Source: Bacteroidota bacterium (GTDB lineage Bacteria > Bacteroidota > Bacteroidia > Chitinophagales > UBA8649). Taken from it: DNA of 64,000 nucleotides. Shown in pieces: positions 27,318 to 36,036 of this stretch; position 1 is the first letter of the stretch, and each line of letters begins with the position of its first letter. Where the stretch lies: contig PKDX01000053.1 in assembly GCA_002862745.1 (NCBI GenBank), positions 1-64,000 on the forward strand. Reading direction: 5' to 3'. The notes beneath the pieces are model-generated. The model was not told where the DNA came from and did no database searches. It was given only the letters and a program-made list of their open reading frames with translations. Made by a program: the position numbers and the translations under genes.

Positions 27318-29750
27318 TTAGGAAATATACTTACGCGGTATTCTTGAAGAAATGGTTGAAATAATTTCATACACGGAAAGACCTGTGTGCAACGCCATTT
27401 CTTTGGCTAGCAAGCCATTACCTAAAATGGTCACAGCACTACCCACTTTAGTTGCGGGGATGTTGGTAACATCAATCATAGTTAAATCCATACATATTTT
27501 ACCAACGATTCGGGCCTTATGAAGGTTTACCATCATATATCCTCCGGACCAAAGTGTACTTAGTCCATCAGCGTAACCCAGGGGAATGGTGGCAATTTTC
27601 ATATCACGGTCTGCAATAAATGAACGGTCGTATCCTACGCTTTCCCCTTTTTGAACGTGGTGAATCTGAGTTATCCGGCTAATCCAAGTTAGAACGGGCT
27701 GTATTTCAGCCACAGAGGGCTCAGAGTAGCCATATAAGCCCAACCCTAATCGGACCATGTCGAAATGGGCAGAAGAAAAGCGTAGGATGCCTGACGAGTT
27801 TACTAGGTGTTTTAACACGGGCGTTCCAATCGCTTTTTCAAGGTGTTTAGCACACAGAGAAAACGCCTCAATTTGGCGTTGAGTGAAGGTGTCGTGCTGG
27901 GCATTGTTGCTGCTCACAAGATGGGAAAATGTCGAGGCTACCGCGACACCGTTTTCCTTGATTTGTTGAGCAATCGATGTAGCCTCGGCCACCGGAAACC
28001 CTAGTCGCTTCATACCAGAATCCCATTCAACATGCACTTTGGGCAATCGCTCTAGAGATTGATTGGCAAGGATCCATTTTTGCAGGGATTCTTGGCTAAA
28101 AAGTACAGGCTCAAGGTTGTGCTCAATCAGAAGGTCAATGGCCGTAAAGTCTGCATTCATCACCATGATTGGGCTTTGAATACCAGCCTCTCGAAGCACA
28201 ATTCCCTCATTGGTATAGGCAACTGCAAGGTAGTCTACGCCAAGGGTGGATACATGTCTCGCCACCTCAATAGATCCTGATCCATAGGCTAAGGCTTTGA
28301 CCATTACCATGATTTTGGACTGCGGTGCGCGCTGTCGATAGGCGCTAAGGTTACTTGTAATTTGACTTAGGCTTACTTCTAAAAAACTAGGATGCGCGCG
28401 CTGCATAAGATGAGGAAAAATGGTCTCTAATGCGAAGGCACGACTACCCTTAATTAAGATGGTGGTATTTCGCCGATCAAAATAGTCAATTGCCTCGACC
28501 AAATCAGCGGTGGATTCCACGACTAAATGCGCACACGAAATCCCATACTTCTTTATGGCCTTTTGCCACTTTGAACCCACACCAATAAAAAAGGAGACAG
28601 GGAGATGGTTGAGATAGTTAAACACAAGAGAAAACCAGGATTGGTCCTCTTCGGCAGAGTCTGAACTTAACTCAGAAAGAATAATACCGTGTTTCCTTTG
28701 ATCGAATTGCTCTAAAAACTCTAAAGCAAGTTTTAAACTCTCTTTGTCATTCGACCACGTATCATTAAGCAATATCGATTGGCTATCTCCGTGGAGCACT
28801 TCGAGTCGTAATGGAATGGGTTTTACGCTGCCCAGGGAAATTTGGACAGCCTTTGGGGGTATATCACAACATAAAGCAACAAGTGCAGCCGCCATGGCAT
28901 TGCTTTGCATGGCAAGGGTGTTAAATCGCGATGAAATGACTTGAAGAATCCCTTGGTCAATACCTGACTGTTCGGAATTTTTTGCATTCCAAAAGCATAG
29001 TTCTTTTCCCTGTGCAATCTGTTTTGCTTCAGGCGATTTAATAAAAGCAACAACATCTGGAATATGTGCAGGCAAGCAGATTGTGCGGGCGTAATTTTTT
29101 GCCAACGCCAGTTTTTCTTCAATTTTTGCTTGTCGATTTGGAAATCCAGCGTCATGGGCATCCCCAATGTGACATAATACTGCGATATCCGGCTGTATCA
29201 TCGCCTCTAACTTTTCCATTTCGCCCACCGATGATATGCCAGCTTCAATTATTGCAATAGTATCTTCAGGTCGTACTTTCCAAACCGAAAGCGCCACACC
29301 AATTTGGGAGTTATGGCTTCGAAATGAACGGTAGCTTCTTTTTTCAGATTCAATCAACTGGTGGGCCCATTCTTTAACAATGGTCTTTCCATTGGAGCCT
29401 GTAATGCCCACAAAGCGTGTATTGACCAATCGTTCTCGATGCATCAATGCTGTTTGTTGGAGGGCTAGAAGAACATCTGGACAACGCATAATAAACAGGC
29501 CCTCAGGAATGGGTTTATTGATCGTGTAGTCTTCTTGTATCACAACGGCTAAAACGCCCTTGTCAATTGCATCTTGTATAAAATCATGGCCATTTCGCCG
29601 ACCCTTGAGACAAAAAAAGACCCCATTTGATCCATCTACAATTTCCCGCGTATCAATAAACAAATGCTCAAAATAAACATCCTCTGGTAAAGGAGTTGAT
29701 AATTGGAGATGACAAAACTCAGCCCAAGCGACAAGTGAATAGGACGACAT
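27318..29750 (-). CDS. Bifunctional UDP-MurNAc-tripeptide:D-Ala-D-Ala ligase / alanine racemase (MurF-Alr fusion)
   Basis: N-terminal Mur ligase (FVGITGSNGKTIVKEW, Walker A) fused to PLP alanine racemase (KIMVMVKALAYGSGSIEVA, YDRSFIADRDMKIATIPLGYADGL). Confidence 0.95.
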   Translation of the reverse strand: MSSYSLVAWAEFCHLQLSTPLPEDVYFEHLFIDTREIVDGSNGVFFCLKGRRNGHDFIQDAIDKGVLAVVIQEDYTINKPIPEGLFIMRCPDVLLALQQTALMHRERLVNTRFVGITGSNGKTIVKEWAHQLIESEKRSYRSFRSHNSQIGVALSVWKVRPEDTIAIIEAGISSVGEMEKLEAMIQPDIAVLCHIGDAHDAGFPNRQAKIEEKLALAKNYARTICLPAHIPDVVAFIKSPEAKQIAQGKELCFWNAKNSEQSGIDQGILQVISSRFNTLAMQSNAMAAALVALCCDIPPKAVQISLGSVKPIPLRLEVLHGDSQSILLNDTWSNDKESLKLALEFLEQFDQRKHGIILSELSSDSAEEDQSWFSLVFNYLNHLPVSFFIGVGSKWQKAIKKYGISCAHLVVESTADLVEAIDYFDRRNTTILIKGSRAFALETIFPHLMQRAHPSFLEVSLSQITSNLSAYRQRAPQSKIMVMVKALAYGSGSIEVARHVSTLGVDYLAVAYTNEGIVLREAGIQSPIMVMNADFTAIDLLIEHNLEPVLFSQESLQKWILANQSLERLPKVHVEWDSGMKRLGFPVAEATSIAQQIKENGVAVASTFSHLVSSNNAQHDTFTQRQIEAFSLCAKHLEKAIGTPVLKHLVNSSGILRFSSAHFDMVRLGLGLYGYSEPSVAEIQPVLTWISRITQIHHVQKGESVGYDRSFIADRDMKIATIPLGYADGLSTLWSGGYMMVNLHKARIVGKICMDLTMIDVTNIPATKVGSAVTILGNGLLAKEMALHTGLSVYEIISTISSRIPRKYIS

Positions 29751-30522: not shown

Positions 30523-30565
30523 ACTTTAAAGGTAAGGGTCAAAGTTGCATCTTTACGGTGTAACC

Positions 30566-32005
30566 ATGATTCGATTCACAAGGCTTCTGATTTTGTTTAA
30601 CCTGACCTTAGGTAGTCTTAAGGGCCAATCAACTATTAGCGGCTTGGAATCAACATATAACTCAATGCAAAAGGGTGCAGTAAGGTGCATGGTATTGCCT
30701 ACAATTCTTCCTACAAATGTTGCAGAAACAACCCAACCATTTAGTTATTGGTATAACAAAGTCGATCGGCAATATGGAAGTTTAAGGGCTACACTGCAAA
30801 CGGCGGATCTTGTAATTGCCCCTATGTTGGCCACGATTGGAGAATCACCTTATGGAAAAGCTCCAATGTATAGTGTCCCAGAAGACTGGTTTACATCAAT
30901 AAGCAGTTTGGGTATTACTCACACATGCCTGTCAAATGCGGCCACACTTAGGGCAAAACCACGTTCTGTAATGCGCCGGACAGACATTCTTCGACAAGAA
31001 CGTATCGTTCCAATTGGACTATTTGATGGGGCCCAAACCGAAGGCATACATTGTGTAATCAAAGAGATCAAGGGACTTCGACTCGCCCTTTTTTCCTTTG
31101 TTTATCCTTTTCAAGGTTATAATGGCCAGTTTGGAATGTCTGGTTTTGATACAGATCGGTTCGAGGCATTTTATTCAGAATATAGGGATAGCATTGATTG
31201 CTGGATAGCGATTCCTTCTTGGAAAAACGCGCAATATGGAGCGGTTTCTCGTGCCGAACAAAGGGATCTTATGAATACACTTTCTCGCGCCGGATTTAAT
31301 GTGGTGATAGGATACTCCGGCAAGCACATGTGTATTGAAACCATGATGCAAGATTCTGCCAAGCTTTTATTATTTGATGTGGGCATGACGTTACCCGCTT
31401 CTATTTCTCAAACAGGAAGCGGGGTGTTGGTAGAGTTTTCCATAGATACCGTTACCAAAGAGATACAAAACGTCGGCCTTATTCCAATTTATCCGTTACT
31501 CGTAGATCAAAGTGAAGAGAGGGAAATGGAGCTTATGGCGGTTTTTGGTCGGGATTTAGAGGTTTCCGAGTATTCTACAAACTTATCGCAAGACCAGGAA
31601 ACCCATTTCAAAACATTTATGGCCAAGTTTAGACAAACCAAACCCTTGTCAATTAAGGAGTTTTACTATCCGCAGTCGCTAGCCATACGAAATGATGCAT
31701 CGAATGCCATCCAACTACAGAAAGGATGGGAGGTCGATTCGACAATTCACAGTGCGCCGCGTGGTTATGGGGTTCAGTTTCTTCAGTTAGCCCGGGAAAT
31801 AATGCTTGATACCGAGTATTATCATCACCTTCGGGGATATTCCGTGTTTCAGATCAATGGACGCTTCCATTATGTTCTTGGTAAAAACCTTACTTTGGAA
31901 GAGGCAGAAAATCTATTGCGAGAGTTAAGGTCAAAGTCACATGAATTTGCTCAAATTGTACAAATCAATGGATCAACCCTTGTTTCAACGACTAATCGTG
32001 AATAA
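30566..32005 (+). CDS. CapA (PGA_cap)-like protein lacking metallophosphatase residues, with C-terminal SPOR-like domain
   Basis: Signal peptide from Met at 30566 (MIRFTRLLILFNLTLG). Middle aligns by eye with Bacteroidota CapA. C-terminus YGVQFLQLAR...HHLRGYSVFQINGRFHYVLGKNLTLEEAENLLRELRSKSHEFAQIV resembles SPOR. Confidence 0.6.
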   Translation: MIRFTRLLILFNLTLGSLKGQSTISGLESTYNSMQKGAVRCMVLPTILPTNVAETTQPFSYWYNKVDRQYGSLRATLQTADLVIAPMLATIGESPYGKAPMYSVPEDWFTSISSLGITHTCLSNAATLRAKPRSVMRRTDILRQERIVPIGLFDGAQTEGIHCVIKEIKGLRLALFSFVYPFQGYNGQFGMSGFDTDRFEAFYSEYRDSIDCWIAIPSWKNAQYGAVSRAEQRDLMNTLSRAGFNVVIGYSGKHMCIETMMQDSAKLLLFDVGMTLPASISQTGSGVLVEFSIDTVTKEIQNVGLIPIYPLLVDQSEEREMELMAVFGRDLEVSEYSTNLSQDQETHFKTFMAKFRQTKPLSIKEFYYPQSLAIRNDASNAIQLQKGWEVDSTIHSAPRGYGVQFLQLAREIMLDTEYYHHLRGYSVFQINGRFHYVLGKNLTLEEAENLLRELRSKSHEFAQIVQINGSTLVSTTNRE

Positions 32006-32014
32006 ACGTACTGT

Positions 32015-32749
32015 ATGGACCCGCTTTTTGCAGACATAGGAAACTCTACTATAAAAATAGCACGCCTTGTAAATGGGTCGGTTGACCGACTTTCTTATAC
32101 AGATCATCAAAATGCCCCCAAAGACATTCTTTCTTCCGTAAGCCTATTGTCCAATGTGGGCATGTCGCTTACAAAGCAGCGAGCGGGATTTGGAGACTGC
32201 CCATCGGTCCATGATTTGCTTAATAGGTTGCCGTTGAATCTTGCGTATAATCATCCAAAGCAACTGGGTCAAGATCGCATTGCTGTCATGATGGCTGCAT
32301 GGTCCTACGATAACAGAACGAAATCAAAGAAGAACACTTTTGCGGTAATCGATTTTGGTTCTTGTGTAACGACAGATATTGTGAATTCCAATGGGGAACA
32401 CTTGGGGGGGAATATAGATTTAGGTCTTTTGTGGAGGCTTCGCGCCGCCCACTCCTTCTCAGAAAACCTTCCAATGATTGATATAGGGGATAGCGCCCAG
32501 GATTTAGAAGGGTTTTTGGCAAATAACACATTGCAAGCCTTGGACTTTGGTATAGTATCGGGCTTCTTGCGCCAACAGATAAACCATATAAAGACATGCT
32601 TTGAACAGTATGGGGTTGAACGTGTTTTCTTAACCGGGGGACAATCTTCATGGATTGCTAAGTTTTTGCCAAAGGAAGAGATGCGGGAAATAATTGTAGA
32701 TGAAGACCTTGTAATTCGCGGATTAAATGACATTTTTGCACTCGGTTAA
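32015..32749 (+). CDS. coaX: Type III pantothenate kinase
   Basis: FADIGNSTIKIARL, LGQDRIAVMMAAWSY, FAVIDFGSCVTTDIVNSNGEHLGGNIDLGL, VFLTGGQS. Confidence 0.92.
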   Translation: MDPLFADIGNSTIKIARLVNGSVDRLSYTDHQNAPKDILSSVSLLSNVGMSLTKQRAGFGDCPSVHDLLNRLPLNLAYNHPKQLGQDRIAVMMAAWSYDNRTKSKKNTFAVIDFGSCVTTDIVNSNGEHLGGNIDLGLLWRLRAAHSFSENLPMIDIGDSAQDLEGFLANNTLQALDFGIVSGFLRQQINHIKTCFEQYGVERVFLTGGQSSWIAKFLPKEEMREIIVDEDLVIRGLNDIFALG

Positions 32750-34066: not shown

Positions 34067-35503
34067 ATGAAAAATTATATTGTAACACTATCAATGGTAT
34101 TGATCTTTCAAGGATTGTTTGCCCAACAAAGCGAGGTAGATAGAATAGGCGAGGATTTGCGTTCCAGATGCAGTGGAATGGCGTATGCCGATCACCCCCA
34201 ATCTACCCAAGACACCTTTGCCTTCTTTGTGACGCGTTACAAAAACAAGGATTATACTTCAGCGTATCCTTTCTGGAGAGTGATTTTGGATATCGCTCCA
34301 GATATTCAGCCGAGCGTATTACAGGGTGGTGTTGACATAATGAAGTCTCGATACAATAGCGCTTCAGATGCTGCGACAAAAACAGCCATCGCGGATACCA
34401 TTCTAGCATTGGCGGAGGCTATGCCATCGTGTTTAGGCTCTGGGGAGAACTCATATATTGAATACAGAGTCTATCAATGGTATACTTACAGGAAAAATGC
34501 CAAGTCCAAACTAGACGAGCTCTTTTCTCAATATTATGCCGAGAAAGGAAATGCAATGAACCCTCAATTCCTTCTTGTATGGCTGACGACGAGTATGTCA
34601 ATAGATAAAAAAAATGGAACAGAGGGTGATCCGGTATGGGAAGTCTATGATGCCGTAGATCAAATATGCAATGCAAACCCAAGTGATGTTAATACTCAAA
34701 CTGCTGAGAAAGCGCTGGGCTTGATGAAGCAGTATAAATATTTGGATTCTGCACAATTGGTTACACGTAGTGAGGCTATGTATAGCGCTTCACCAGAGGA
34801 CTTTGCGGTTTTACGAAAGTGTGTTCGCTTTCTGCAACTGGCCAATGCAACGGACTTGGCTCCTTTTAAAGAAATCGCAAACAAGTTGGCTGACAATGAC
34901 CTTGCGCTTTATCCTGACAGCATGGAATCGTTGCAGTATGTTTTTACCCTCTACAAACAGGCTGGCAATGTAGAAGGGGTGCAGGCTGTTGCTGAAAGAA
35001 TGTTTGCCTTAGATCCCAACTCAATGGAGATTGCCATGTACCTCGCGCAATCTAAGGCTGCTGCCGGACAACTTAGTGAGGCCGTCACCTTTTATAACAA
35101 GGCAATATCTATGGGGGGTAACTCAGCAGAGATTAATTATACCATAGCGGGCTTGTACCAATCATCAGGCAGCTTCTCAGAAGCTCGACGATATGCAGAA
35201 AAGGCTCTTTCTGCGCGACCCGGATGGGCAAAACCTCACATCTTAATCGGCAGATTATATGCTAGCTCTGGGTCGCGATGTGGCGAAGGGACTGGGTGGG
35301 ACAGTCAGGTGGTCGTGTGGGCTGCAATTGATGAATGGAAGAAGGCTGGTGGCGATTCGGAGGCCCAAAGCCTCATAAGTCAATATTCAAAATACTTGCC
35401 CACGAGTCAAGACATTTTTATGCGAGACGGGGTAGAAGATGGAGGTCAATATTTTGTGTCTTGCTGGATTCAACGAAGTGTGACAGTCCGCCCTCGACCT
35501 TAA
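34067..35503 (+). CDS. TPR-repeat protein of the coaX-lptC neighbourhood
   Basis: Signal peptide; TPR-like repeats (AVTFYNKAISMGGNSAEINYTIAGLYQSSGSFSEARRYAEKAL); C-terminal VSCWIQRSVTVRPRP. Confidence 0.8.
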   Translation: MKNYIVTLSMVLIFQGLFAQQSEVDRIGEDLRSRCSGMAYADHPQSTQDTFAFFVTRYKNKDYTSAYPFWRVILDIAPDIQPSVLQGGVDIMKSRYNSASDAATKTAIADTILALAEAMPSCLGSGENSYIEYRVYQWYTYRKNAKSKLDELFSQYYAEKGNAMNPQFLLVWLTTSMSIDKKNGTEGDPVWEVYDAVDQICNANPSDVNTQTAEKALGLMKQYKYLDSAQLVTRSEAMYSASPEDFAVLRKCVRFLQLANATDLAPFKEIANKLADNDLALYPDSMESLQYVFTLYKQAGNVEGVQAVAERMFALDPNSMEIAMYLAQSKAAAGQLSEAVTFYNKAISMGGNSAEINYTIAGLYQSSGSFSEARRYAEKALSARPGWAKPHILIGRLYASSGSRCGEGTGWDSQVVVWAAIDEWKKAGGDSEAQSLISQYSKYLPTSQDIFMRDGVEDGGQYFVSCWIQRSVTVRPRP

Positions 35504-35505
35504 CT

Positions 35506-36036
35506 GTGATTAGACATTATTTGTTTTATGGAATTGCATTTTGTGCCCTGATGCCATCCTGCCATGGTGTCGAGGAGTCTAACCAATCCCAAGAAGTCCA
35601 CGCTCTAGAAAGCAGCAAATTCATAGGTGTGAGGCTCAATACGTACACAGACACGACGGCGGGATTGGTTGTTTTTTCGGACCAGGCGCTTGTTGACGAA
35701 GAATCGTCGAGGTCCATGGTTTTTACAGGCTCAAGCCAGGCAGAATCCTATGTTGAAGGGTCTACAACTCCTAACACATTGTGGGCGGACACCCTTACCG
35801 CAGATCTTGATAATAAAAGACTTAACGCAAGTGGACATTGCTTACTCGTTAATGCAGAGGGAGATACCTTTGTAACATCCGAAATATTCTTCGCTAGCGA
35901 TTCACTGTCGTCTTTTCATCCAACACGGGCAGTATTTAGCCCACGAGCTGAACGAAATATCGTATTGGAACCCGGAGAACATTTACTGGATTCTTTTGTA
36001 TATACATCGTCAAAAACGCTACTTTGGAAGCATTAA
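35506..36036 (+). CDS. LPS export LptC-like periplasmic lipoprotein (GTG start inferred)
   Basis: ORF track begins at 35335 inside the TPR gene; GTG at 35506 gives lipoprotein signal YGIAFCALMPSC, then LptC-like beta repeats (LWADTLTADLDNKRLNASGHCLLVNAEGDTFVTSEIFF). Confidence 0.65.
   Translation: MIRHYLFYGIAFCALMPSCHGVEESNQSQEVHALESSKFIGVRLNTYTDTTAGLVVFSDQALVDEESSRSMVFTGSSQAESYVEGSTTPNTLWADTLTADLDNKRLNASGHCLLVNAEGDTFVTSEIFFASDSLSSFHPTRAVFSPRAERNIVLEPGEHLLDSFVYTSSKTLLWKH

Follow-up and report, generated by a model that had tools for sequence, protein, structure and literature searches.

A probable pseudo-metallophosphoesterase of CapA-SPOR ancestry encoded upstream of coaX in a Bacteroidota bacterium

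Introduction

What might an envelope protein do once nearly all of its active site has been replaced and its gene is nevertheless kept? The question is raised by a gene in the window analysed here, a stretch of 64,000 nucleotides from a Bacteroidota genome. An initial sequence-only reading had described its product as a CapA/PGA_cap scaffold in which every metal or catalytic residue is replaced, followed by a SPOR-like tail. As a reference for the active site we used MslH, a lasso-peptide epimerase and a solved member of the CapA family (PDB 8gq9), in which the metal is held by Glu44, Asn87, His259 and His261, and in which Asp11/His295 and His88/Asp91 form dyads (PMC10406935).

Results

The gene and its surroundings

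The features of the gene are collected in Table 1. An alternative start, an upstream TTG, lies at 30545, and full-length relatives likewise begin with signal-peptide-like N termini. The next gene is coaX, after a gap of only 9 nt, which agrees with the placement given in the sequence-only reading. Upstream and divergent are genes for a TauE-type transporter and a murF-alanine racemase fusion; the latter is one 810-aa ORF (27318-29750, minus strand) with Mur_ligase_M and Ala_racemase_N/C matches, and MurF-alanine racemase fusions are known in Bacteroidota. Beyond coaX follow, in order, a probable outer-membrane protein of 438 aa that has no Pfam match, then a TPR protein and finally a CNNM/CorC protein. 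Within 34067-36036 (plus strand) the TPR ORF, ending at 35503, overlaps the ORF after it, whose mechanical start is 35335; this second ORF looks like a lipoprotein of the LptC type, with a lipobox-like MPSC, and its true start is probably near or after 35503.

Table 1. Features of the CapA-SPOR gene and the adjoining coaX (all coordinates are window positions).
Feature	Position	Strand	Description	Basis
CapA-SPOR ORF	30566-32005	+	479 aa, ATG start	
Signal-peptide-like N terminus	30566..30631	+	aa 1-22, MIRFTRLLILFNLTLGSLKGQS; lipobox Cys absent	sequence
Degenerate CapA/PGA_cap (calcineurin-like phosphoesterase) domain	30680..31500	+	aa ~39-312	Pfam PF09587, intact-CapA profile
Motif I, GD (MslH Asp11)	30698..30703	+	Pro45-Thr46	hand alignment
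Motif II, NLE (MslH Glu44)	30821..30829	+	Pro86-Met87-Leu88	alignment, intact-CapA profile
Motif III, ANNHxxD (MslH Asn87/His88/Asp91)	30932..30952	+	Ser123-Asn124-Ala125-Ala126-Thr-Leu-Arg129	alignment, profile
Motif IV, HWG (MslH His259)	31217..31225	+	Ser218-Trp219-Lys220	alignment, intact-CapA profile
Motif V, GxHPH (MslH His295 = second His)	31310..31327	+	GYSGKH	alignment, profile
YSLGNF block	31373..31387	+	Phe-Asp-Val-Gly-Met	alignment
Linker between domains	31586..31757	+	conserved R356...E365xxY368	alignments
SPOR-like C-terminal domain	31760..31996	+	aa ~399-477 (~75 aa), Gln404 on first strand	tail profile A3, E ~1e-30
coaX (type III pantothenate kinase)	32015-32749	+	neighbour kept in nine genomes	Pan_kinase E=1.7e-22

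A CapA scaffold with most of its active site replaced

The CapA/PGA_cap scaffold recognised in the sequence-only reading is confirmed by two profiles. PF09587 matches aa 65-252 of the protein at 37.5 bits (E=2.4e-9), where the cut-off is 27, and a profile that we built solely from intact-motif CapA proteins covers aa ~70-357 (E=1.7e-14). On these matches, the protein is derived from a CapA (PGA_cap) ancestor. A search of the whole genome recovered the same gene at 38.8 bits and no other PGA_cap gene, so this genome has no active paralogue to which it could be a dead partner. A direct search of the PDB gave no significant match, and the NCBIfam search returned one sub-threshold chance match and nothing else. 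Structure prediction from a two-sequence input gave an AlphaFold model with a pLDDT of 31.5, and the C-terminal 141 residues modelled alone reached 39, both too low for a fold search.

In our alignment of a Bacteroidota CapA protein with MslH, Glu44 corresponds to NLE, Asn87, His88 and Asp91 to ANNHxxD, His259 to HWG, and His295 to GxHPH; Asp11 was equated with the Asp of the N-terminal GD motif. Eight active-site positions were scored in this way (D, E, N, H, D, H, H, H), of which seven are replaced in the window protein. The substitutions that had been read off block by block (NLE to PML, ANNHxxD to SNAATLR, HWG to SWK, and SLGNF to FDVGM) hold in the alignments and in the intact-CapA profile. 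At motif I, the MAFFT row shifts the block by one or two residues, and the Asp is absent either way. The claim that every metal or catalytic residue has gone is correct for these seven positions but fails at one: although the first His of motif V is gone, His254 aligns with the second after a one-residue insertion and may be its retained counterpart. As judged from the alignments, the pocket appears to be lost, and the protein is homologous to CapA but is not classed as a CapA enzyme.

Graded erosion among relatives next to coaX

We surveyed 61 relatives and 299 genomes of the order, in which many CapA proteins with the window-type tail were found. The gene stands directly before coaX in nine genomes from three families (G000, G001, G003, G004 and G005 of f1; G024, G037 and G049 of f20; G055 of f8) and is not linked to coaX in G012, G031, G043 and G008. 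It was not found in the same-genus genome G002; coaX and 12 kb of flanking DNA including aspS are likewise unmatched there, and the absence is therefore probably an assembly gap. A search of viral contigs found no relatives of the window protein.

The active site is eroded to different degrees. Five to six of the eight positions are kept in f20, five in G004, two in G003 and G005, none to two in f8, and one each in f4 and the window genus. Among families with the window tail type all 35 rows keep between 0 and 6 positions, whereas all seven rows of tail-less CapAs keep all eight. All eight are also kept in two SPOR-tailed f12 proteins (L060 and L071) and in L009, whose tail is tentative (Pfam SPOR E=0.14), and the motifs are almost entirely kept in the CapA proteins examined outside the order. 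Three of the latter (L132, L134 and L136), with intact motifs, have weakly SPOR-like C-terminal ends that Pfam SPOR misses.

The substitutions themselves are shared within the window genus, where six of the eight positions are identical in the two species, but not with close relatives, which have different, partly eroded sites. Motif III is lost and the motif IV His kept in G004, while two f20 rows keep the motif III His and have lost that of motif IV; from these opposite losses, the site was lost along at least two routes. The members of f8 agree in what replaces these residues (Asp to Asn, Glu to Lys, and two His to Asp and Asn), which suggests a rebuilt pocket in which a Lys-Asp salt bridge could take the place of the metal. 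The f8 loci L010, L012 and L030-L036 have the common set GN, NLK or NMK, DWG, and PN. Relatives from f8 (L061, L047, L051 and others) have long linkers between CapA domain and tail, with ORFs of up to 877 aa; the linker of L061 is of low complexity and rich in Thr, Lys and Asn.

When compared with relatives (f12 and f5 proteins left out), the CapA domain of the window protein is 15-22% identical and its tail 28-38%, whereas comparisons among the other family members give similar identities for both parts; the window genus, by this comparison, is the one that changed most in its CapA part. With 4.7 changes per site, the branch leading to the window clade is very long, so that the clade's placement in the tree is uncertain, and the proposed orthology of the window gene is based on the order of genes and of domains.

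A divergent SPOR-type tail

The tail domain is conserved across many relatives of the window protein. Pfam SPOR (PF05036) does not match the window protein at E<=1, and the SPOR-like tail of the sequence-only reading survives as remote homology, reached through amidases. The next best matches of the tail profile are amidases of ~360-430 aa; the two checked by Pfam (L113 and L118, the latter the window genome's own) are Amidase_3 proteins, and hhalign joins the tail profile to that of the Amidase_3 tails at 99.3% (E=4.6e-20). One of the two, L113, has this tail type and is recognised by Pfam SPOR, and several other Pfam-SPOR-positive loci are also matched by the tail profile. Against nine SPOR domains, hhalign gives 93% (E=2.8e-7), with the alignment confined to the C-terminal half. 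Gln404 corresponds to the conserved Gln on the first strand of SPOR domains, an important residue that contacts the glycan in RlpA (PMC6895207); in the f20 tails this position is Arg or Lys. Taking together the amidase-tail match, the links to Pfam-SPOR-positive proteins, and Gln404, we assign the tail, by homology, as a divergent Bacteroidota SPOR-type domain. A PDB search with the tail profile yielded chance matches only.

The gene is under purifying selection

The orthologue L001, from the MAG UBA12012, is 84% identical and open over its full length. Between the two species, dN/dS is 0.157 for the CapA-SPOR gene and 0.152 for coaX; the murF-alr fusion and tauE give 0.10, and the two genes that follow coaX give 0.05. 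The CapA domain alone gives 0.15, and stops and frameshifts are absent in both species; the inter-domain linker gives ~0.05 (0.045), a value based on few sites. The gene is under purifying selection, and a pseudogene is ruled out by the dN/dS of ~0.16, equal to that of coaX, and by the open orthologue. Homologues with an intact site exist, the catalytic residues are lost, and coding constraint is kept, the combination by which a pseudoenzyme is recognised.

Discussion

We favour, with a probability of about 0.62, a secreted pseudo-metallophosphoesterase that arose from a CapA-SPOR enzyme lineage encoded before coaX and that is likely a peptidoglycan-tethered scaffold or regulator. The ancestor would have been a CapA enzyme that carried a SPOR-type tail and whose gene lay immediately before coaX; its metal site would then have eroded in the coaX-linked lineage to give periplasmic pseudoenzymes. 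The protein would be exported to the periplasm in soluble form, where its tail is predicted to dock on peptidoglycan denuded by amidases, which is rich at the septum, leaving the dead CapA domain to bind or regulate some other envelope factor. We count the tail being the best conserved part relative to relatives in favour of this reading as a whole; the septal role is a proposal. More tentatively, the coaX-linked CapA-SPOR genes of the order as a whole might form a lineage-wide class of pseudo-metallophosphoesterases, reached by at least two routes of loss (the Glu-to-Lys and His-to-Asp changes of f8 being an example) and acting as septal cell-wall regulators, a generalisation to which we give less than even odds.

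Three other explanations were weighed, and each seems less probable. The protein might still be an enzyme, tethered to the wall by its tail, whose site has been rebuilt with other metal ligands or for metal-free chemistry. Purifying selection, the retention of His254, and some His and Cys residues conserved in the window pair are what such an enzyme would lead one to expect, and the CapA fold of MslH performs epimerisation rather than phosphoester hydrolysis (PMC10406935). We nonetheless think it unlikely, as relatives lose ligands in differing combinations, a shared set of replacements occurs only in f8, and no new conserved cluster of His, Asp or Glu is evident across the family. A decaying gene, in which selection on the CapA domain has relaxed and only the peptidoglycan-binding-type tail matters, would fit the lower identity of the CapA domain and the very long branch of the window clade; it is made similarly improbable by the constraint on the CapA domain itself, open in both species, and by the fact that every other eroded relative has kept this domain.

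The remaining alternative concerns the tail, which could be an RNP-like fold of Bacteroidota that serves some other purpose, such as contact with an amidase or the divisome, in place of SPOR-type glycan binding. The failure of Pfam SPOR on the window protein, the half-length alignment to SPOR-positive domains, and the Arg or Lys of the f20 tails all lean this way, and we rate it doubtful, if a little less so than the other two. Against it, the same domain forms the tail of the L113 amidase, where Pfam SPOR does recognise it, Gln404 is kept, and poor detection has a ready context in that SPOR domains are normally <20% identical to one another (PMC6895207).

The preferred reading, of a wall-tethered pseudoenzyme, places the protein beside several known systems. 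With the CapA/PGA_cap enzymes, including MslH, it shares scaffold, motif order, and spacing, and it differs from them in its seven replaced site positions and its C-terminal SPOR-like tail. The f12 fusions L060 and L071 have the same order of CapA domain, linker, and SPOR-type tail, but they retain all eight site residues, and Pfam SPOR recognises their tails; nothing resembling coaX was detected next to their genes, and they group in the tree with tail-less CapA, possibly as a separate fusion. The Bacteroidota Amidase_3 proteins (N-acetylmuramoyl-L-alanine amidases) have the C-terminal domain in common with the window protein, whereas their catalytic domain is unrelated. A literature search for CapA combined with SPOR, of incomplete coverage, found no account of a family of this kind.

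By analogy, the closest functional precedent would be the catalytically dead LytM proteins, among which EnvC, NlpD and DipM regulate septal hydrolases. These and ActS likewise carry a dead enzyme domain in the periplasm; their fold is different and the likeness is one of analogy only, and their function is demonstrated whereas that of the window protein is proposed. For DipM, regulation of septal hydrolases sets a precedent for such a role (PMC10336132). If the proposal is right, the CapA-SPOR proteins would be a second kind of dead-enzyme septal regulator beside the degenerate LytM proteins.

Little is known of what CapA proteins, widespread as they are, do in Bacteroidota. The family described here offers a natural series in which an envelope enzyme would have become a pseudoenzyme while its wall-type tail and its place before coaX persisted; members with 6, 5, 2 and 1 of the eight residues kept would allow direct comparisons for the timing of the loss of catalysis, and the series bears on what the CapA scaffold may do without it.
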